The notes beneath the pieces are model-generated. The model was given only the letters and a program-made list of their open reading frames with translations. It was not told the DNA's origin and did not search any database. Below are positions 14,147-55,463 of a stretch of 64,000 nt of DNA, one piece after another. Source of the stretch: Candidatus Bacteroides pullicola (GTDB lineage: Bacteria; Bacteroidota; Bacteroidia; Bacteroidales; Bacteroidaceae); the NCBI GenBank assembly GCA_019115825.1, contig DXCV01000029.1, positions 20,188 through 84,187 on the forward strand. Direction: 5' to 3'. The translations under genes were made by a program, and so were the position numbers. The first letter of the stretch is position 1. The number at the start of each line of letters is the position of its first letter.

Positions 14147-17100
14147 TCATTCGCCAATACCCCGTTCAGCCGCTGCCTTGGGATAGGTTTCATTCAAAGA
14201 AGTATCCTCATCCGCTACCGCATCGGGAACTTCCAGGTCACGTCTCTTGATGCCAAACGCCACCACATAGAGATACATGCTCGTAAGGACGTTGATGGCC
14301 GCGTCACATTCCTGCTCGGTAGCTATGGGAGCCTTGTGGGCATTGTCATTCCGCCACTCCCTTACCAGTCCAAGATAGTCGCTGAACTTCCTGTCCGACT
14401 CGCTTTCCGAATACTTCAAGCGTTTCAGGCAAGGCGTTTGGAAAATGCAGTCGGCCAACATCGCTTTCTGACCTTCTTGGCCGGGCTTTGTGCTGACCAT
14501 CTCGGCATGATTCTTTAAGTAATAGACCTTCTTCAAGAATACCTCAAAGCGGCTGACCAGTGTGTTGAAATGCTGCTTCTTGTCCACCAGAGGCACTGCC
14601 GCCGGACTGCAATACAGCCGGTTGAACGCGTTTTGTATCACGTCGTTGGCCCCATCCATATCATCCGTGGTCCGGGCGGCAATAAGATCTACCAGGTCAT
14701 CCGCGATTTGTTCCTTGCCTTTGGGCATCATCTTGTAAACGGCAAACTCACGCTCTATGGTCGGCAGAATCTTCTCCTTGAAACGCTTGGGGTTGAAGAT
14801 GAGCGCATCGCCCTCTGCCCGGTAGTTCTGATACATCAAATCCGCCATTTGCGTCATGATGCTATTGTACAGTTCCTTGTTTTGGAACAGACGGTCAAAC
14901 GCATCGACACTTTCGTCGTAACACTTCTGGGCTGCCTTCTCGAAGATTTCGGGGAAGATGCTTTCGGCAAATTGCTTCGGGTCATTGTTCTGGGCCTGTT
15001 TCGTCAACTTCTTTTTCGTGGCGGTGGTGGTCAGCTTGTCGTAGATGGCTTCCACGATCACCCGGTCGGCTGGCGAGAAGTTGCCTTTGAACATCATATT
15101 CACCTTGTCTATGATGTTGGACAGCAAATCCCGGTTCTCGTCGGGCTTTCCGCCGCCTTTCACGTTCTCGCCTTTGATGCCGCCCTTGCCCTTTTCCAGA
15201 ACAATCTGCTGGGTCTTGCCCTCCTCGATGCGGGAGTTGATGAGCTGGATTTGCTTGGCCAAGTCCACCTTTTCATGAGGAGTCTTCGGCAACAGGCAAT
15301 ACAACAAGTCACAGAAGATATAGGTTTGGTATAAGCCTCGGTCATAGGTCCGTTCCACCTGTGCCATATAAGCATAGAAGCGGACAAAGTTCTTGATGAG
15401 CGAACGCACCTTGAAGCGTGTCTCCTCGTCCAGCTGCTCGAATCTCGACACGACAGGCTTGAACGCATTGCTCAGCTTGGCCAGCCTACTCTTGTCTTTC
15501 TTGGTCTCAGACGCCAGTTTATAGATAGCCTCCTCTTCCGCCGGGCTCCAGAGGTGATACTGCGCCATGTCATTGCGGAAATTGTAGACCCCGTTCACGT
15601 CCACCGGCCGGATAAGCTCCGTGGCCGTGTAGAAAGGCTCGAAGGCTTTCTGGATGGATACCGGGTCGTTCACGAAGTCCAACACATAGGTATCTTCCTT
15701 ATCTTTATGTGCACGGTTCAGCCGGCTCAAGGTCTGCACGGCCTTGACATTCTTCAGCTTCTTGTCCACAAACATGGTGTGCAGCAACGGCTCGTCGAAG
15801 CCGGTCTGATACTTGTCCGCCACCACCAGCATGTTGTACATGTCACTGGCGAAGTAGAGGGGCAAACGCTCCTCGCTGATGTGCAGGTCTTCGTCGCTAT
15901 TCAACTTCGTCTCGGTATACTCGGTGTCGCCATACTTGACCTTGCCGGAGAACGCCACCATCGGATGGACATCTGTATACCCCTTCTCCTCGCAATACTT
16001 CTTGATTTGCAGGAAATAGCGCAGGGCATGGGCACGGCTCGAGGTGACCACCATGGCTTTGGCCTGCCCTTGCATGGCATGCAGGGTGATGGCGCGGAAC
16101 TTCTCCACGATGATTTCCGTCTTCTGGTTGATGACATGCTGGTGGTTGTCGTGATAGGCTTTCACGGCCCGCGTGGCTGGCGTCTCCTCGTAGGTCGGGT
16201 CTTGCTCGATTCGCTTCTCTATCTCGTAGGTCACGCTATACGGGGTATATTGCAACAATACGTCCTTGATAAACCCCTCTTCAATGGCCTGGAGCATGGA
16301 ATAGACATGGAAGGGGCGGTATTTGTCCTCTTCCGGCGTCCTCCCCTTCTCCACCAGCACGCCGAACGTCTGGAGCGTCTTCGGCTTGGGGGTCGCCGTG
16401 AAGGCATAGAACGAGAGGTTGCTGTGCCTCCCCTGGGCCAGCAAGTCTTCCATCATGGCGTCGCGCTCCGCCTCCAGTTGTTCCTCCGTCTTCTCTTCCA
16501 GTTCGGCCATTTCGTGCAAGGCTTCGTCGGTGTCGGCCAAGGCGGTCTTCACCTTTTCCGCGCTCTTGCCGCTCTGGCTGCTGTGTGCCTCGTCCACGAT
16601 GATGGCATAGCGCTTGCCGCTCCGGGAAGTCACCTCCTGATAGATGACCGGGAAGCGGTGCAGCGTGCAGATGACAATCCGGGCCGCCCCCTCGTTGATG
16701 ACATCGCGCAACTTCGTGGACGGGTCTTTGTCCGTGATGGTCTCTATCTGCCCTTCGATGTGGTCGAGCCCCAGGATGGTCGTCTGCAACTGGGCATTCA
16801 GCACCCGGCGGTCGGTGATGACAAACACGGCGTCGAAGATGCTCTTCTGCCTCGCGTCATGCAGCGAAGCCAGCCGATAGGTGAGCCAGGCAATGGAGTT
16901 GGACTTGCCCGAGCCGGCGGAGTGCTGGATCAGGTAGTTCTGCCCGCTGCCTTTCGCTTCGGTGTCGGCCAAGAGCTTCTCCACGACGTCCAACTGATGA
17001 TAGCGGGGGAAGATGATCTTCACGGAGGTTTCCTTCCGCTCCCTGATTTTGCCATGCTTGTCACGCACCAGCTTGATTCTCTCCTCTTCCTGGCGGGAGA

Positions 17101-17884
17101 TGTAACGCTGCAAGATGCTCAGCAGCATGTCGCGCTGAAGCACGCGCCGCCACAGGTAGGAAGTGGCGTAGTCGTCCGGGTCTTCACATTCCGGATTGCC
17201 GGCGCCGCCCACACGGCCCGCACCGCCGCTGCCCTGGTTGAAGGGCATGAAGTAGGTCTTGTCCTTTTTCAGCTCCGTGGCCATGATGGCTTCGTAGAGG
17301 TCCACGCCAAAGTAGGCCAGGATACGGGTGTTGAAGTGGAAAAGCAGTTCCGCGGGGTCACGGTCGTTCTTCCATTGCTCGCGCGAGTTCTCGACATTCT
17401 GCCCGGTAAGCTGGTTCTTCAGCTCCAGGGCCACCACAGGGATGCCGTTCAGGGACAGCACCATGTCTATGGTGTTCCTGTTCTGGGTGGAATAAGCAAA
17501 CTGTCGGGTCACCTGGAGGATGTTCTGCCCGTATTTCAGCATCAGTTCTTCGTTCAGCTCCGAGGCCGGACGGAAATAGCACATCTTCAGCCGGATGCCC
17601 AAGTCGTCGATGCCGTTGCGCAGCACGTAAATCAGCCCGTAGCGCGCGACGTTCTCCTGAAAGACCTGATACAGGCGGCTTTCTGCCTTGTCGCCATACT
17701 TGCGCACATAGCGGTCCCATTGCTTGGGCTGGGTGGTGGCCAGAAACGCCATGAGGGTGGCCAGGTCGATGGCACGCTCCTTGTCGTAGGTCTTCTGATT
17801 ACCCTTCGTATAACCACCGTTCTCTAAAAGCCATCGTTCGATGTCGGCTTCAAAGTTTCTTTCCTGCAAGTCTTGCTCGTTCAT
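14147..17884 (-). CDS. hsdR: Type I restriction enzyme R subunit
   Basis: A 1245-residue ATP-dependent translocase/nuclease that cuts DNA in complex with HsdM and HsdS when the recognition site is unmodified. The N-terminal nuclease domain shows an Asp and the ExK core in DMVLSLNGIPVVALELKNQ. The SF2 motor follows, with Walker A HSAGSGKSNS, DEAH box VDEAHSSQ, motif III FTATP and motif VI QTLSRLNRAH. The long C-terminal helical region is intact. No frameshift is seen. It is separated from hsdS by the 22-bp hairpin array, unlike the tight hsdM-hsdS junction. Confidence 0.95.
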   Translation of the reverse strand: MNEQDLQERNFEADIERWLLENGGYTKGNQKTYDKERAIDLATLMAFLATTQPKQWDRYVRKYGDKAESRLYQVFQENVARYGLIYVLRNGIDDLGIRLKMCYFRPASELNEELMLKYGQNILQVTRQFAYSTQNRNTIDMVLSLNGIPVVALELKNQLTGQNVENSREQWKNDRDPAELLFHFNTRILAYFGVDLYEAIMATELKKDKTYFMPFNQGSGGAGRVGGAGNPECEDPDDYATSYLWRRVLQRDMLLSILQRYISRQEEERIKLVRDKHGKIRERKETSVKIIFPRYHQLDVVEKLLADTEAKGSGQNYLIQHSAGSGKSNSIAWLTYRLASLHDARQKSIFDAVFVITDRRVLNAQLQTTILGLDHIEGQIETITDKDPSTKLRDVINEGAARIVICTLHRFPVIYQEVTSRSGKRYAIIVDEAHSSQSGKSAEKVKTALADTDEALHEMAELEEKTEEQLEAERDAMMEDLLAQGRHSNLSFYAFTATPKPKTLQTFGVLVEKGRTPEEDKYRPFHVYSMLQAIEEGFIKDVLLQYTPYSVTYEIEKRIEQDPTYEETPATRAVKAYHDNHQHVINQKTEIIVEKFRAITLHAMQGQAKAMVVTSSRAHALRYFLQIKKYCEEKGYTDVHPMVAFSGKVKYGDTEYTETKLNSDEDLHISEERLPLYFASDMYNMLVVADKYQTGFDEPLLHTMFVDKKLKNVKAVQTLSRLNRAHKDKEDTYVLDFVNDPVSIQKAFEPFYTATELIRPVDVNGVYNFRNDMAQYHLWSPAEEEAIYKLASETKKDKSRLAKLSNAFKPVVSRFEQLDEETRFKVRSLIKNFVRFYAYMAQVERTYDRGLYQTYIFCDLLYCLLPKTPHEKVDLAKQIQLINSRIEEGKTQQIVLEKGKGGIKGENVKGGGKPDENRDLLSNIIDKVNMMFKGNFSPADRVIVEAIYDKLTTTATKKKLTKQAQNNDPKQFAESIFPEIFEKAAQKCYDESVDAFDRLFQNKELYNSIMTQMADLMYQNYRAEGDALIFNPKRFKEKILPTIEREFAVYKMMPKGKEQIADDLVDLIAARTTDDMDGANDVIQNAFNRLYCSPAAVPLVDKKQHFNTLVSRFEVFLKKVYYLKNHAEMVSTKPGQEGQKAMLADCIFQTPCLKRLKYSESESDRKFSDYLGLVREWRNDNAHKAPIATEQECDAAINVLTSMYLYVVAFGIKRRDLEVPDAVADEDTSLNETYPKAAAERGIGE

Positions 17885-17930
17885 ATCTCAATGTAGGTTT
17901 CAAAATTAGTAAAAAGAATATCTGCAAATG

Positions 17931-18147
17931 GTTCCACCCGTACCGGAACCGAGTTCCACCGGCGTTGGAACTGCGTTACATCCGTACTGTAACGGCGTTA
18001 CATCCGTACTGTAACGGCGTTACACCCGTACTGTAACGATGTCACACCCCGTACTGTGAGGTCGTCACACCCGTACTGTGAGGTCGTCACACCCGTACTG
18101 TGAAAGCCTCACACCCGTACTGTGAAAGCCTCACACCCGTACTGTGA
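17931..18147. repeat. Tandem array of ten 22-bp hairpin repeats between hsdS and hsdR
   Basis: Ten units start every 22 bases (17931, 17953, 17975, 17997, 18019, 18041, then +1 from an extra C, 18064, 18086, 18108, 18130). Each unit is a 19-base hairpin plus a 3-base spacer. Units 1-2 have arms GTTCC/GGAAC, units 3-5 GTTACA/TGTAAC, and units 6-10 TCACA/TGTGA. The loop is mostly CCCGTAC. Arms change together within a unit, so pairing is kept while sequence varies. Pairing between neighbouring units breaks at the 2/3 and 5/6 borders, showing that the unit is arm-loop-arm. A 22-base period cannot be coding. There are no unique spacers, so it is not CRISPR. Confidence 0.95.
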
Positions 18148-18208
18148 AGCTATGAGGATATGGGATAAGGGCGATTGCGCATATTCATTGGGTATTAAAT
18201 AGGATGCG

Positions 18209-19468
18209 TTAGTCAATATTTGTTTTACCGGTCACTGCCTCGAAGATAATGCTCTTCTTGTATTCTTTCAACGTCTCTATCTTCTGTCGCTTTATTGAAA
18301 TTAGGGTGTCTATCTCGTGGCATTTCTCTTGGATATATAGCGCAATAGATTCTTGTTCATTAGCAGGTGGATATATGCAACTAATTGAGAACAAATCATC
18401 TGTGTAAAGTCGGGTTAACCCCGCGCCTACGCCAGTTGATAGTTTCCGAAATTCTGCTATATATTGTGGAGTCTTAAATAAATACTCCAGATACTTCATG
18501 CTACAATTGCCTCTTTTTGAATAAACAGCATAGTCCGGACTTACTAAGCCATCAAATTTAGAAACAGCAAAGACTCCCAAGTGAGCTTTAAGCTTATTGA
18601 AAACCAAATCGCCTTTATATACTAATTTTGCACCCACAAAGGATGAAGCCATATTGGGAACAACATCCATCTCTTTAGTAGGAATCAATCCATATTTCTG
18701 ACTCATAGAAAGGGGCTCTTCTTTTCCTCTTTCCGAACGTTCCTTCCGTTCATTTAATTGCCATTTCACTTTTGTGATAGCCCAACCTTTCGGCACATCC
18801 CCAATCCAATCAATCCCAGATGGTACCAGTTCCGCCTCAGGATTTAATCCTTTGGTGACAGCTTCGGTTATGACGGACTGTTTATAGTCAGTAAGCTGTG
18901 CTATCATTTGCTCTTGCAATTCAACCAAAGAATCTATCTCGGCGCACTTCTTGTCGAGATAGGAGGCGATGGCTTGTTGCTCATCAAGAGAGGGAAGAAT
19001 ACAATTTAGCTTTCTTAACTCAACCCAATTAAGGTTTTGCCGTACTCCATTGCCCATACTATAAAACACTTTTTTTATGTCCGCTGAATGAAGTTGATAA
19101 TGTAGATACTTGGGCAATACGAGGGACATTGCTTCCAATGCTAAATATGCAGAAGTTATTATACCTTTTTGAGTGGAAAGCCCAACCCTAAGGCTTCTTT
19201 GGTCATTCTGCAAGTCAGTTAAACGTAGCACTATATTCCCATCCTCAACTATTTGGTATGTGTCGAAAGAAGCAGGTAAAAGACCATCCGTGGTGTTTAT
19301 ATTCTTATTGACTATTTTACCGTAGCTTAACGAAAGTAGATTTTGATTATGTATGTTTTTGTTTGATATATAGTGTTCTTTTGCCATTTGTGACAAAGAG
19401 CAGACTTTCCAATCCTTCGGAATCCTCCCAATCCACTCAATCCCGCTATCCTTATATTCTCTTGCCAT
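18209..19468 (-). CDS. hsdS: Type I restriction enzyme specificity subunit
   Basis: A 419-residue DNA-recognition subunit with two target recognition domains (about residues 15-150 and 225-365), each followed by a coiled-coil spacer (EIDSLVELQEQMIAQLTDYK and EIDTLISIKRQKIETLKEYK). The two halves start with related motifs (GIEWIGRIPKDW and GIDWIGDVPKGW), the internal repeat expected for HsdS. The target sequence cannot be read from the protein. The second TRD region uses more AT-rich codons than hsdM/hsdR, as is usual for exchanged TRDs. Only one hsdS is present and no inverted partial copies or recombinase are nearby. Confidence 0.93.
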   Translation of the reverse strand: MAREYKDSGIEWIGRIPKDWKVCSLSQMAKEHYISNKNIHNQNLLSLSYGKIVNKNINTTDGLLPASFDTYQIVEDGNIVLRLTDLQNDQRSLRVGLSTQKGIITSAYLALEAMSLVLPKYLHYQLHSADIKKVFYSMGNGVRQNLNWVELRKLNCILPSLDEQQAIASYLDKKCAEIDSLVELQEQMIAQLTDYKQSVITEAVTKGLNPEAELVPSGIDWIGDVPKGWAITKVKWQLNERKERSERGKEEPLSMSQKYGLIPTKEMDVVPNMASSFVGAKLVYKGDLVFNKLKAHLGVFAVSKFDGLVSPDYAVYSKRGNCSMKYLEYLFKTPQYIAEFRKLSTGVGAGLTRLYTDDLFSISCIYPPANEQESIALYIQEKCHEIDTLISIKRQKIETLKEYKKSIIFEAVTGKTNID

Positions 19469-19480
19469 AGCCGATTCAGA

Positions 19481-21490
19481 TTAGTGTAACAGACTCTCCA
19501 TTAACTCACTCTCTTTCTGCTCCAAATCCTTCAGCGCTTGGAATATCTCACTGCTGGGTCTGAGCGGCGTGTAGCGATAGAACTCACGGGTAAACGGAAT
19601 CTCGTAGCCGATGCGGGTCTTCTCCTCGTCCACATGATAGTCCGGGGCGTATGGAGCCACATTCCTTGCCAAGTACGAACCGGGATTTTCCTTCCACGGA
19701 ATAATCTCGGAGTCGGCAAGGTCCGGGTCCCAAACGTAAGTGCGTTCACGCAAGTTGAACGGGTCTTCATAGACCTCTTCCGCCGTCTCGTCCTTGATGC
19801 CCAGGTATTGCCGAATCTTCTTCACCTGTGCCTTGGTCACCTTCAGTCCGGCCTTATACTTGATTTTCTGGAAGAAGTCGCGGTCAATCAGGCGTTGCCC
19901 GGGGTAATAGGCCCGATAGCCGTCTACGAACTGTTGCACAATCCTGCGGTCTGCCTCCGTCAACTTCGCGCTCTCATCCGGCATCTCTGGATTCTCGTAT
20001 ACCAAGCGCAAGGGGCGGTCGATAAACACCTTGCGATACTTGAAATCCTCGTTGTCTTTCACCCGGCTTTCCACCTGAATCTCCACGCCATCGGCCGTAG
20101 TGGCCTTATAGACAAAGTCGTTGAAGCCGTGATAGGCCTGCATGACGAGGTCGCGGCAGAAGTCCGAGATTTCCACACGCTTATTGCCGAGCGGCTTGCG
20201 ACGCTTCTCGTAGCATCGGCTGGCGTCGATAAGCTGCACCTTGCCCTGACGTTCCGCACGCTTGTTCTTGGTGACTATCCAAATATAGGTGGCAATGCCC
20301 GTGTTGTAAAACAGGTCCGTGGGCAGCTGCACAATGGCCTCCAGCCAGTCGTGGTCCAGCAAATAGCCACGGATGTTGCTTTCCCCGCTTCCCGCGTCCC
20401 CCTTGAAGAGCGACGAACCGTTCTGGATGATGGCCATGCGGCCTTCAGCTTTCAACTTGGCCACGCCGTTCAGCAAGAACAGCATCTGCCCGTCGCCGAT
20501 GGAAGGCAGTCCGGGTTCAAAACGGCCGGCACCGCCCATTCGGTATTCCTCTTCCACCTTCTGGCGCGACGGCTTCCACTCGATGCCAAACGGGGGATTG
20601 GAAATGATATAGTCGAAGGTGTAACCGGCAAACCGGTCATCCCCCAGCGTATCCCCCTGGCGCATGTTGTCGGCATTGCCTCCACGAATCAGCGTGTCTG
20701 CCTTGGCAATGGCAAAAGTCTGGTTGTTCAGCTCCTGGCCATAGCTTGTGATTTCCGCCTCCGGGTCAATCTGCTTGAACCGGTCGTGCAGACACGAAAG
20801 CATCTGGCTCGTCCCCATCGCCATGTCATAGTTGGCGACAACGATGCCTTCTTCCTCCAGCCGCACCTCATCGTCGCCAATGAGCAGCTCCGCCATGAGG
20901 TTGATGATGTCGCGGGCGGTAAAGTGTGCTCCGGCCTGTTCGTCATAACTCTCAGAGAACTTGCGGACCAGTTCCTCGAAGATGTAACCCATGTCGACGC
21001 TCGAAATCTTGTCGGCGCCGAGGTAGGCTTTCGCGGTGCAGAACTCCTTGATGACCAGGTAAAGCAATCCGTTATCGGCCAACTTGTCAATCTCCTTCTG
21101 GAAATCCATGCGGTGGATGATGTCGATGACGTTCTCCGAGAAGTGGTTCAGATACGACTCGAAGTTGTCCTTGATGTTGTCCGCGTCGGCCAACAGGGTC
21201 TCGAAGGTGAAGCGGCTCAGGTTGTAGAACTTCTGTCCGGCGGCACGTTCCAAGAATCCACGCGTCTCCTCGAATTTCTTCTCTTCCAACTCCTTATTTT
21301 TCTCCAACACCTTTTCGCGAGTGGGTGCCAGTGTGTCTTCAAACCGTTTGATGACACACATCGGGAGAATGACGTTGCCGTACTCGTGGGGCTTGTACAC
21401 GCCCACCAGCTTGTCAGCAATCGCCCAAATCAGGTTGGCTTTCTCTTGCACGTTGACCGTGGTCTGCTGTTGTCTGTCGTCTATGCTCAT
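19481..21490 (-). CDS. hsdM: Type I restriction enzyme M subunit (N6-adenine methyltransferase)
   Basis: A 669-residue protein with an N-terminal HsdM_N helical domain (NLIWAIADKLVGVYKPHEYG) and a SAM-dependent methylase domain. Motif IV is DYIISNPPFG, the adenine-methylase catalytic motif. The SAM-binding motif I reads YDMAMGTSQML, a variant of DPxxGxG. The C-terminal extension after about residue 500 is longer than in classic HsdM and may replace accessory contacts. It heads the hsdM-hsdS-hsdR operon, 12 bases from hsdS. Confidence 0.95.
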   Translation of the reverse strand: MSIDDRQQQTTVNVQEKANLIWAIADKLVGVYKPHEYGNVILPMCVIKRFEDTLAPTREKVLEKNKELEEKKFEETRGFLERAAGQKFYNLSRFTFETLLADADNIKDNFESYLNHFSENVIDIIHRMDFQKEIDKLADNGLLYLVIKEFCTAKAYLGADKISSVDMGYIFEELVRKFSESYDEQAGAHFTARDIINLMAELLIGDDEVRLEEEGIVVANYDMAMGTSQMLSCLHDRFKQIDPEAEITSYGQELNNQTFAIAKADTLIRGGNADNMRQGDTLGDDRFAGYTFDYIISNPPFGIEWKPSRQKVEEEYRMGGAGRFEPGLPSIGDGQMLFLLNGVAKLKAEGRMAIIQNGSSLFKGDAGSGESNIRGYLLDHDWLEAIVQLPTDLFYNTGIATYIWIVTKNKRAERQGKVQLIDASRCYEKRRKPLGNKRVEISDFCRDLVMQAYHGFNDFVYKATTADGVEIQVESRVKDNEDFKYRKVFIDRPLRLVYENPEMPDESAKLTEADRRIVQQFVDGYRAYYPGQRLIDRDFFQKIKYKAGLKVTKAQVKKIRQYLGIKDETAEEVYEDPFNLRERTYVWDPDLADSEIIPWKENPGSYLARNVAPYAPDYHVDEEKTRIGYEIPFTREFYRYTPLRPSSEIFQALKDLEQKESELMESLLH

Positions 21491-21675: not shown

Positions 21676-23079
21676 ATGAAAGAATTGAAATGTCCGAAAT
21701 GTGGGAATGTATTCAAGGTGGATGAAGCTGATTATGCTTCCATCCTCAGCCAGGTGAAGAACGCAGAATTTGAAGCGGAAATAGCAAGCCGTCTCAAAGA
21801 AATGGAAGCACGCCATCAAGCTGAACAGGCTTTGAAATCCACAAAAGCCGAGCAGGAGTTCGCAAGCAAAATGAGCAAGAAAGACTTGGAGTTGAGTGCT
21901 AAGGATGCTGAAATAACTCGCCTTAAAACCGAGATGAACGCCATGCTGGCCAAACTGAATGGAGAAAAAGACCAGGAAATAAACCGCCTTAAAAATCAGT
22001 TGGAGAATATAGTCAGTCAGAAAAACTCTGAACGGCAACTTGCGCTTGCAGAAAAAGACAAGACTATCGCAACGCTGAATGCTACGATTGAACAAGAAGA
22101 ATCGAAGTTGAGAATTGCGGTCATGGAAGAACAGAAAAAGTCGGAGCAAGCCATCCAGGAACGTGAGCAGACAATTAATAAGCTCAAGTCTGATATGGAA
22201 TTGGAACGTTTCAAGGCACAGGCAGAGACGGAGGAATTGAACAAGCGGCATCTGTTGGAGCTTCAAACCAAGCAGGAGCAGATAGACTATTATAAGGACC
22301 TCAAAACCCGCATGAGCACAAAGATGATTGGGGAAACCCTAGAAATACATTGCAGCACGGAGTTCAACCGTATGCGTTCACTTTTCCCATACGCCTATTT
22401 TGAGAAAGATAATGACGCTTCCGAAGGTTCCAAAGGTGATTTTATATTCCGGGATTTCGGGCCAGATGGAACAGAATATGTCTCCATTATGTTTGAAATG
22501 AAGAATGAAGCGGACGAGACTGCTACTAAACACAAAAACGAGGATTTCTTTAAAAAACTAGATGCCGATCGTAAAGCTAAGAATTGTGAGTTTGCTGTTC
22601 TTGTTTCATTGTTAGAACCGGACAGTGAACTTTACAATGGGGGCATTGTAGACGTGTCTTATCGTTATGATAAAATGTACGTGATACGTCCGCAATTCTT
22701 TATGCCGCTTATCAGCTTATTAGTGCAGACATCTAAAAAGAGCCTGGAATACAAGCAGGAACTGGCCGTTGCCAGAAGCCAATCTGTAGACGTGACGAAC
22801 TTTGAGGACAAACTGATTGACTTTCAACAGCGCTTTGGAAATGACTACCGGTTGGCGAGTGAGAAGTTTAAAACTGCTGTTGATGAGATAGACAAGTCCA
22901 TTCAACATTTGCAAAAGATTAAAGACGCATTGTTGGGTAGTGAGAATCGTTTGCGTTTGGCCAATGATAAGTTGGAAGGGCTTACTATCAGAAAACTTAC
23001 ACGTAATAATCCGACCATGAAAGCTAAATTTGAAGAAGCGCGTAAAAAGAAGAGTGGCCCATCCGCAGAAGAATTATAA
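21676..23079 (+). CDS. DUF2130 domain protein, nuclease-like with long coiled coil
   Basis: A 467-residue protein. It starts with a CPKCGNVF zinc-ribbon-like motif (a single CxxC), then a charged coiled coil (about residues 20-215), then the DUF2130 domain (about 220-400). That domain contains GDFIFRD followed by [11 protein letters not shown], a D...ExK arrangement like a PD-(D/E)XK nuclease core. A helical C-terminus follows. DUF2130 proteins have no settled function. Placement divergent from a type I RM operon favours a DNA-processing or defence-associated role, which is inference. Confidence 0.78.
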
Positions 23080-23134
23080 TTCATACCTAACTCTTATACG
23101 CTTTCTTTTCGATTGCTTCCGAACCGTCAAAACT

Positions 23135-23220
23135 CTCTTTCAGGTCTCTTTCCGAAAGAGACTTGAAAGAGACTTGAAAGAGACTTGAAAGAGACTTGAA
23201 AGAGACTTGAAAGAGAGAAG
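23135..23220. repeat. GAAAGAGACTT tandem repeat with hairpin (locus 1 of a family)
   Basis: Five perfect 11-base units of GAAAGAGACTT (23154-23208) plus a partial. They are preceded by CTCTTTC/GTCTCTTTC, so an 18-bp stem with one G-U pair can form around 23153. Related CTCTTTC arrays ending in the same kind of hairpin occur at 43527-43580 and 55079-55140. Confidence 0.85.
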
Positions 23221-23376
23221 AGGGTGTATCAAAATATAGACATGGCACACAGATGACACGGATTAAACAGATGATCACAGATTTATTTTGCTCGTAATCA
23301 GTTATATATAATCTGTGGTCATCTGCCCTATCTGAGTCATCTGTGTGCCATTCCTTATTTTGACACACCCTCTTCT
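23216..23376. repeat. 161-bp foldback (MITE-like) element
   Basis: The ends are inverted repeats of about 21 bases (AGAAGAGGGTGTATCAAAAT and its complement near 23376, one mismatch). Inside are nested arms: ATGGCACACAGATGAC (23242-23257) pairs perfectly with 23336-23351, and AGATGATCACAGATT (23269-23283) pairs 14/15 with 23310-23324. Almost the whole element folds on itself. It has no ORF. The terminal motif resembles ends of several IS families, so a non-autonomous element is plausible. It could also act as a two-way terminator between DUF2130 and proS. Confidence 0.8.
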
Positions 23377-43430: not shown

Positions 43431-43526
43431 TTTATTGTTATTATTATTATTACAATCTTATAATATAAAGATAGACAGTATAGGAAACATACAACAACAA
43501 ACAACAACAAGTAATTTTCTTTTTCT

Positions 43527-43580
43527 TTCAACTCTCTTTCTCCTCTCTTTCATGTCTCTTTCAAGTCTCTTTCCCAAAGA
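43527..43580. repeat. CTCTTTC array with hairpin (locus 2 of a family)
   Basis: Repeated CTCTTTC words spaced about 11 bases (CATGTCTCTTTC, AAGTCTCTTTC) end in GTCTCTTT-CCC-AAAGAGAC, a perfect 8-bp hairpin. The words match locus 1 at 23135 in opposite orientation. Confidence 0.8.
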
Positions 43581-43649
43581 GACCTGTATGGGCTATGCGA
43601 AATAGCTGCATGAACAATGATATTTGGATGAAAAAATTATAAGGATTTA

Positions 43650-54744: not shown

Positions 54745-55463
54745 CTTATTTCGACGTCCTACGGGACGAAAACGGGGCATTTATTTTAACGCGAGTTCGA
54801 CATTATCTAAAACATCGCAAGTTATCCACCCTTGACCAAACATAGGCCCATGGCGGGCTTCTTTTAATTTTATACAAATATATTACTATGCACAAAAATA
54901 ATGATTAATTACATATTTATCCGAATCACCCGGCATTTGCAGACATTGCCCTCCCCGTCGGCCACTTCCCGCATTTCCCGCCCGCCGGGGCGACAGAAGC
55001 CCCTTGGGTAGTCATCCACCCGCCAAAGGCCTTGAAAATACGGGAAATGGGCTAATTTTTATCTCCTCATCCGTTATTCCTCTCTTACTCCTCTCTTTCA
55101 TGTCTCTTTCACCTCTCTTTCATGTCTCTTTCGGAAAGAGTGTTATGACAGCCCTGAAGCAATCGGAGAGAAAGCGTATAAGAGTGATGTATGAATTATT
55201 TAGCATTGATATTGCACAATGTTTACTTTTTTCAATAATACAAATAGTCCATTCATAACACTGGCAGTTGCTCGCCGGGATTGACATCGCTATATTCCTA
55301 ATTTCCAAAACTAATTCTCAAACCTAATTTTAATCCTTATATCGAACTCCCGTTATTTTATATCCCGATGAATCACCGGCAGAAAGAATGTGGAAAGCCG
55401 CCCCATATTGGGGAAATTTTCCACACCTGCAACGCCCCACGCCCCAATCCGCATCCTCCGGGA
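54745..55463. other. Gene-free spacer upstream of the plus-strand 55.6 kb operon
   Basis: About 720 bases without a supported gene. It holds a small CGTCC-TAC-GGGACG hairpin (54765-54778), an AT-rich part (54860-54930), a GC-rich pyrimidine tract, the CTCTTTC array (55079-55140) and a CCCCA-TAT-TGGGG hairpin (55401-55413). The 84-codon ORF at 55004 covers the CTCTTTC repeat and looks accidental. I recognise no RNA gene or mobile element remnant here. Confidence 0.5.
55079..55140. repeat. CTCTTTC array with hairpin (locus 3 of a family)
   Basis: CTCTTTC words spaced 11 bases (CATGTCTCTTTC, CACCTCTCTTTC, CATGTCTCTTTC) end in CTCTTTC-G-GAAAGAG. The words and closing hairpin match loci at 23135 and 43527. 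Confidence 0.8.

Follow-up and report, generated by a model that had tools for sequence, protein, structure and literature searches.

Palindromic 22-bp units between hsdS and hsdR of a Bacteroides genome: a probable member of a dispersed family of extragenic minisatellites at gene 3' ends

The window that we analyzed, a stretch of 64,000 nucleotides from the genome of Candidatus Bacteroides pullicola (2.86 Mb, 85% complete), carries a type I restriction locus on its minus strand. In the direction of transcription, hsdM for the methyltransferase (19481..21490; MTase_I, 1e-222) is followed after 12 nt by hsdS for the specificity subunit (18209..19468; PADLOC Specificity_I, 3e-95; NCBIfam, 2e-12) and, beyond a gap of 324 nt, by hsdR for the restriction subunit (14147..17884; PADLOC, and TIGR00348 at 3e-50, which lies below the curated cut-off). 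As originally predicted, this gap holds a tandem array, with the hsdS stop 61 nt ahead of it and the hsdR start 46 nt past it. Between the array and hsdR, we found a promoter-like sequence, TTTG-N16-TAATTTTG (17901..17928, minus strand), which matches by consensus only the -33/-7 promoter type of Bacteroides; seven such matches occur in the window versus 1.4 expected. Given this sequence, the predicted single continuous hsdMSR transcript is not supported, and hsdMS may instead form a unit that has its 3' end at the array.

The array comprises ten palindromic units from 17931 to 18147, starting at 17931, 17953, 17975, 17997, 18019, 18041, 18064, 18086, 18108 and 18130, i.e., at a step of 22 with a single step of 23 due to an extra C in unit 6, the loop of which reads CCCCGTAC. 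Three arm classes succeed one another by unit number: GTTCC/GGAAC in two units (17931 and 17953), GTTACA/TGTAAC in three (the first at 17975, closing the stretch of units 1-3 at 17931..17993, then units 4-5 at 17997..18037, which read GTTACA-YCCGTAC-TGTAAC), and TCACA/TGTGA in five (units 6-10 at 18041..18147, reading TCACA-CCCGTAC-TGTGA). Chance does not produce such an array, as none of 40 dinucleotide shuffles of the window yielded a comparable one or any 22-bp tandem array, and the TRF score of ~200 far exceeded the shuffle maximum of 57. The step, the extra C and the arm classes had been described as such, whereas two further claims stood only in part. The loop core CCGTAC, described as nearly constant, is indeed present in most units but is replaced by CCGGCGT in unit 2; and pairing within units, said never to fail, is borne out by palindromic arms throughout, except that unit 1 has an A-C mismatch atop its stem and the TCACA units form stems of 5 bp rather than 6 bp.

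As RNA, the array folded moderately better than its shuffles (z = -2.9), and the z-score for the entire hsdS-hsdR gap was -1.85. The single hairpins were weak (-2.7 to -5.3 kcal/mol), and in the minimum-energy fold of the entire array many units paired with their neighbors to form longer composite stems. At E values of up to 1, none of the Rfam 15 covariance models matched the interval 17600-18500, and no intrinsic terminator-like site (a G+C-rich stem followed by a U run) was found in 17700-18300. We also noticed the sequence TGTGAC-GAT-GTCACA, which we take to resemble matS; this likeness was set aside because MatP is, to our knowledge, a gammaproteobacterial protein.

Comparison of the hsdS-hsdR spacer with relatives did not reveal a conserved element. 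At seven hsd loci of the same genus (L237-L242 and L250; sharing 59-65% identity in hsdR across the greater part of the gene, with one locus, that of G123, split into the two parts L243 and L250), the gap on the hsdR side contained no array, and the upstream open reading frame ended merely 3-99 nt before hsdR. Hence, the array is an addition at the present locus and not a component of type I restriction systems.

The same architecture recurred throughout the genome. A unit of the family consists of a 6-nt arm GTTNCA, a 7-nt loop, a 6-nt arm TGNAAC, and a 3-nt spacer, so that the array as a whole is an alternation of inverted 6-nt half-sites. The arms are either GTTNCA (N = A, C or T) facing TGN'AAC or [G/A/C/T]TCACA facing TGTGA, and the loops are variable, with YCCGTAC the commonest and CCGCCAC, CCGGCGT and TAGGCGG among the others. 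Upon searching with the hsd array by BLAST, we recovered at least seven arrays in its own genome (7 were scored of 30 candidates) and more in 3 of 100 relatives, and altogether at least 18 family arrays lie in this genome beside unrelated genes. A search for further arrays with variable arms had been proposed at the outset, and it found them, with the loops varying as well. A loop-free pattern matched 67 exact tandem pairs in the genome, compared to none for a reversed control pattern. With a covariance model built from three units, matches came up in 42 of 160 same-genus genomes, of which G000 (the source genome), G175, G116, G115, G174, G121, G187, G032, G170, G002 and G037 were rich in matches; the genus is represented here by records of uncultured Bacteroides and of Candidatus Bacteroides species, and most genomes are metagenome-assembled (MAGs). 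The loop-free tandem pattern did not occur in 296 genomes sampled across the phylum, and on GTDB contigs it was present in several Bacteroides MAGs and numerous in Hoylesella loescheii and uncultured Prevotella. At five H. loescheii loci (L132, L135, L140, L142 and L147), GTTCCA-type units sat within a longer conserved repeat, atgcgccttctaagccc..., and the arrays of this species may travel inside a MITE-like element. Short tandem palindromes with a 22-bp step were also seen outside Bacteroidales, in a Nitrospirae MAG (L141; GTTTCA/TGAAAC) and in Arsenicibacter rosenii (L154; GTTGCA/TGCAAC). Three matches with GTTGCA or GTTACA arms in a viral collection look like chance or unrelated repeats. 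A fixed order of arm classes along the arrays was rejected, as about 10 of 13 two-class arrays of the source genome ran one way and 3 the opposite way.

Examination of 83 retrieved family arrays revealed a pronounced positional preference. Genes were called with a simple predictor based on codon usage, for which eight genes of the window served as the training set. None of the 83 arrays overlapped an open reading frame; 59 were located between tandem genes, 13 between convergent and 5 between divergent ones, while the context of 6 was cut off. Between tandem genes, 51 of 58 arrays were closer to the upstream stop codon (median distance 40 versus 80 nt, p = 2e-9; as the sequences are interrelated, p-values here and below serve as guides only), and a stop codon was no more than 25 nt away from 24 arrays, a start codon from only one. 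The family is thus positioned in a REP-like manner, intergenically and mostly just past stop codons.

While this place was kept between species, the units, loops and arm class turned over. Orthologous arrays were found in up to four species with differing arm class and unit number, in line with the predicted changeability of the copy number. In one orthologous pair, all units had switched from GTTTCA/TGAAAC (L097, in G116) to GTTCCA/TGGAAC (L111, in G032) with pairing kept; in another, GTTACA units (L053, in G000) corresponded to mainly GTTTCA units (L089, in G116); and in a third (L099 and L106), every unit differed next to flanks that were 92-98% identical, the first unit being mismatched. 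At L007 and L112, loops changed while the arms stayed. Among 25 three-unit windows, 94% of cells paired, and changes on both sides of the arms were seen in 47 cells versus 17.6 in shuffles, with only two arm positions covarying. The arms therefore do change in step, as had been claimed, also between species. Since tandem duplication copies both arms together, like units within one array are not independent evidence, whereas the recurrence of both-side changes at orthologous sites indicates that paired arms are partly maintained. In a separate observation, the array at L063 (G000), judged by its loop sequence, was oriented opposite to those in the same gap at L116 (G032) and L108 (G187).

The stronger claim that the hairpin rather than the sequence is kept was not supported by these comparisons. 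Arms were limited to GTT[A/C/T]CA and [G/A/C/T]TCACA, and mismatched units were common in relatives, e.g., GTTTCA..TGTAAC in G175 and GTTTCA..TGTGAC in G116. Such pairing-breaking changes had been named as potential counterevidence, and they do exist, yet paired switches recur at orthologous sites. Moreover, the arms of internal units agreed in 91% of cases across the loop and in 84% across the spacer when all arrays were considered (disagreement 9% versus 16%, p = 0.034), and in 95% versus 82% in the source genome (p = 0.017), with no significant difference in G175 and G116. We suggest that selection, homogenization or the two together locally preserve paired inverted half-sites, with the hairpin as such being a candidate for the feature that is maintained.

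The family is part of a wider set of tandem repeats in Bacteroides that share a period of 22 and are unrelated in sequence. In the leuA-leuB gap, different Bacteroides species carried unrelated 22-bp tandem arrays (L254, L255, L256, L258, L261, L263 and L274), with CCGGAACTACCCGGTTGGGTAG in eight copies in G116, CCGGAACTACCCG... in G121 and G115, AAAACACCG[CT]GGTCTTTTTCAG in G150 and G045, and others in G120 and G171. We surveyed periods with TRF (arrays of at least 2.5 copies) in a sample made up of loci chosen without regard to arrays and of arbitrary 20-kb stretches. Pooled over Bacteroides, 53 arrays had a period of 22, against 21 for the periods 21 (9), 23 (11) and 24 (1) together, although part of this pool stems from orthologous loci, so that the 53 arrays are not independent events; the next peak between periods 13 and 60 was at 14 (n = 11). 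The arbitrary stretches by themselves gave a histogram of like shape, and an autocorrelation count that did not involve TRF found 15 arrays of period 22 and 1 of period 21 in 864 kb. Autocorrelation of 200 kb of E. coli yielded no period-22 arrays, and 400 kb from four other genera of the relatives list showed no peak at 22, while a further sample of other relatives contained two period-22 arrays, indicating that the feature is patchy. Together with the H. loescheii and CAMWVS arrays, the units fell into 35 sequence families more than 6 differences apart. A perfect stem of at least 5 bp was present in 22 of these families, compared to about 4 in shuffles; the other 13 had no perfect stem longer than 4 bp, and hairpin size alone therefore cannot set the period, nor can hairpins be the whole story. 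The arbitrary stretches are 74% coding, yet each of their 27 period-22 arrays fell between genes as called by the codon-usage predictor; of 22 arrays with periods of 20-24 that were flanked by tandem genes, 20 were closer to the stop. Phased DNA bending or gyrase wrapping was rejected as the source of the period, as the 35 unit families lacked an 11-bp G+C periodicity.

A fixed 22-bp step in unrelated repeats at gene ends is unlike simple slippage and points to a ruler, which could be enzymatic, consist of a protein coat, or lie in the geometry that limits copying through hairpins. As a tentative proposal, it is conceivable that in Bacteroides and some Prevotellaceae a sequence-independent process or constraint measuring 22 bp makes or keeps these usually palindromic arrays at gene 3' ends, such that orthologous gaps come to carry unrelated arrays of the same step. 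A search of openly licensed papers turned up no mention that Bacteroides repeats favor 22 bp.

Several known systems bear a resemblance to these arrays. REP and BIME elements of Escherichia and Pseudomonas are likewise short, extragenic, clustered multi-copy palindromes near gene 3' ends with species-specific stems, and many REPs of E. coli lie 1-20 nt from the 3' end of an open reading frame (PMC12306157). With at least 18 arrays in one genome and none of 83 overlapping an open reading frame, the Bacteroides family shares the extragenic, multi-copy and palindromic character, differing in its strict head-to-tail period of 22. By inspection, neither a GTAG nor a CGTC tag recurs at a fixed point of the family units. 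The RAYT domain Y1_Tnp (PF01797) was absent from G000 (85% complete), G175, G116, G187, G170, G002, G037, H. loescheii and CAMWVS, and among the carriers searched it was matched only in G115, G174 and G032; most carriers lack the transposase domain. BrickBuilt of Porphyromonas gingivalis is a minisatellite/MITE with 19 dispersed intergenic copies of spacer-less 23-nt tandem units, which expand and contract, differ between strains in number and by point changes, and are predicted to form long stem-loops; 22-nt tandem repeats are mentioned there as reported for strain W83, with positions not given (PMC4596501). Both BrickBuilt and the Bacteroides arrays, from bacteria of the same order, are tandem, intergenic and dispersed with units of 22-23 nt, a likeness at the level of description. 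BrickBuilt has a leader, a tail and IS5-type terminal inverted repeats. Around the Bacteroides arrays, no shared leader or tail was seen: flanks of arrays from the same genome showed no similarity at E 1e-20 (a comparison that very short terminal repeats could escape), although orthologous flanks of different genomes do match, and a MITE model for the family was accordingly not supported. In B. fragilis, the non-coding repeats TR5 (22 bp, 10 copies, the most variable between isolates) and TR1 (23 bp, palindromic) are the two most polymorphic of eight MLVA loci; they are known as typing markers, and the available part of that text does not point out a common period, palindromy or a gene-end position (PMC7585543).

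We consider it probable, at roughly 60% and judging from sequence comparison, that the hsd array belongs to a dispersed family of palindromic minisatellites which are extragenic, resemble REP/BIME elements, are prone to slippage and reside at gene 3' ends. This reading has weak points. Slippage alone predicts no single sharp period in unrelated sequences, and the hsd array lacks a terminator-like site, its single stems are weak, and perfect stems of more than 4 bp are missing from 13 of the 35 families. One could alternatively picture the arrays as binding sites, where a dimeric DNA-binding protein occupies inverted GTTNCA/TGNAAC half-sites, arm class follows the specificity of this protein in each species, and the 22-bp step of two helical turns aligns the dimers on one face of the DNA. 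The variation of loops next to arms restricted to few sequences would fit this, as would the species bias of arm classes at orthologous sites (GTTACA in G000, GTTTCA in G116, GTTCCA in G032 and G115) and spacers that, by eye, read RNY or YNR, giving a palindrome centered on the spacer. Nonetheless, we regard it as unlikely, as unrelated 22-bp arrays of like kind cannot share one binder, the units show no 11-bp G+C periodicity, single arrays, that at hsd among them, combine different arm classes, and no candidate protein was found. The arrays might also be neutral by-products, with template switching expanding hairpin-prone sequence and quasi-palindrome correction matching the arms without selection. 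Fast turnover beside conserved flanks, as between L099 and L106, runs of identical units, and arms that agree nearly as well across the spacer as across the loop are in keeping with such an origin; we deem it quite improbable, since it does not account for so sharp a period of 22 among unrelated sequences or for the strong bias toward 3' sides, and at the least purifying selection against other places would have to be added. Finally, the original reading, in which the array is a structural RNA under selection for tuning hsdR against hsdMS, and for which the location in the hsdS-hsdR gap and the better-than-shuffled fold of the array speak, is very hard to uphold given the whole-gap z of only -1.85, the promoter-like sequence before hsdR, the seven related loci devoid of an array, and the genome-wide occurrence of the family beside unrelated genes.

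Under the REP/BIME-like reading, slippage or unequal exchange would let arrays gain, lose and homogenize their 22-bp units, and arrays would survive at sites where a 3' untranslated stretch rich in hairpins can be tolerated or brings a mild benefit. Such a benefit might consist in protecting the 3' end, in attenuating read-through, or in both effects. In the hsd case, the hsdMS message probably has its 3' end marked by the array, which would lower read-through into hsdR, a gene that perhaps also has a promoter of its own; any effect on hsdR would then be a consequence of where the array landed and not a conserved part of the system. This shifts the focus from hsdR to a genome-wide feature of a genus that is among the commonest gut bacteria, to which 22-bp arrays supply hypervariable markers.

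The window further contains arrays of period 11, half of 22, at 23130-23235, 43511-43581 and 55062-55138, with CTCTTTCANNT-like units. The first of these, which includes 5.7 perfect copies of GAAAGAGACTT at 23154-23216, begins ~50 nt past the stop of the open reading frame at 21676-23079. Close by, at 23242-23358, two arms of ~40-50 nt make up an inverted repeat (CACAGATGACACGGATTAAACAGATGATCACAGATT...). A closely similar sequence is located near a leu gene of another species (G174, L269), and judged by these two copies the repeat has the look of a palindromic, MITE-like element that is dispersed.
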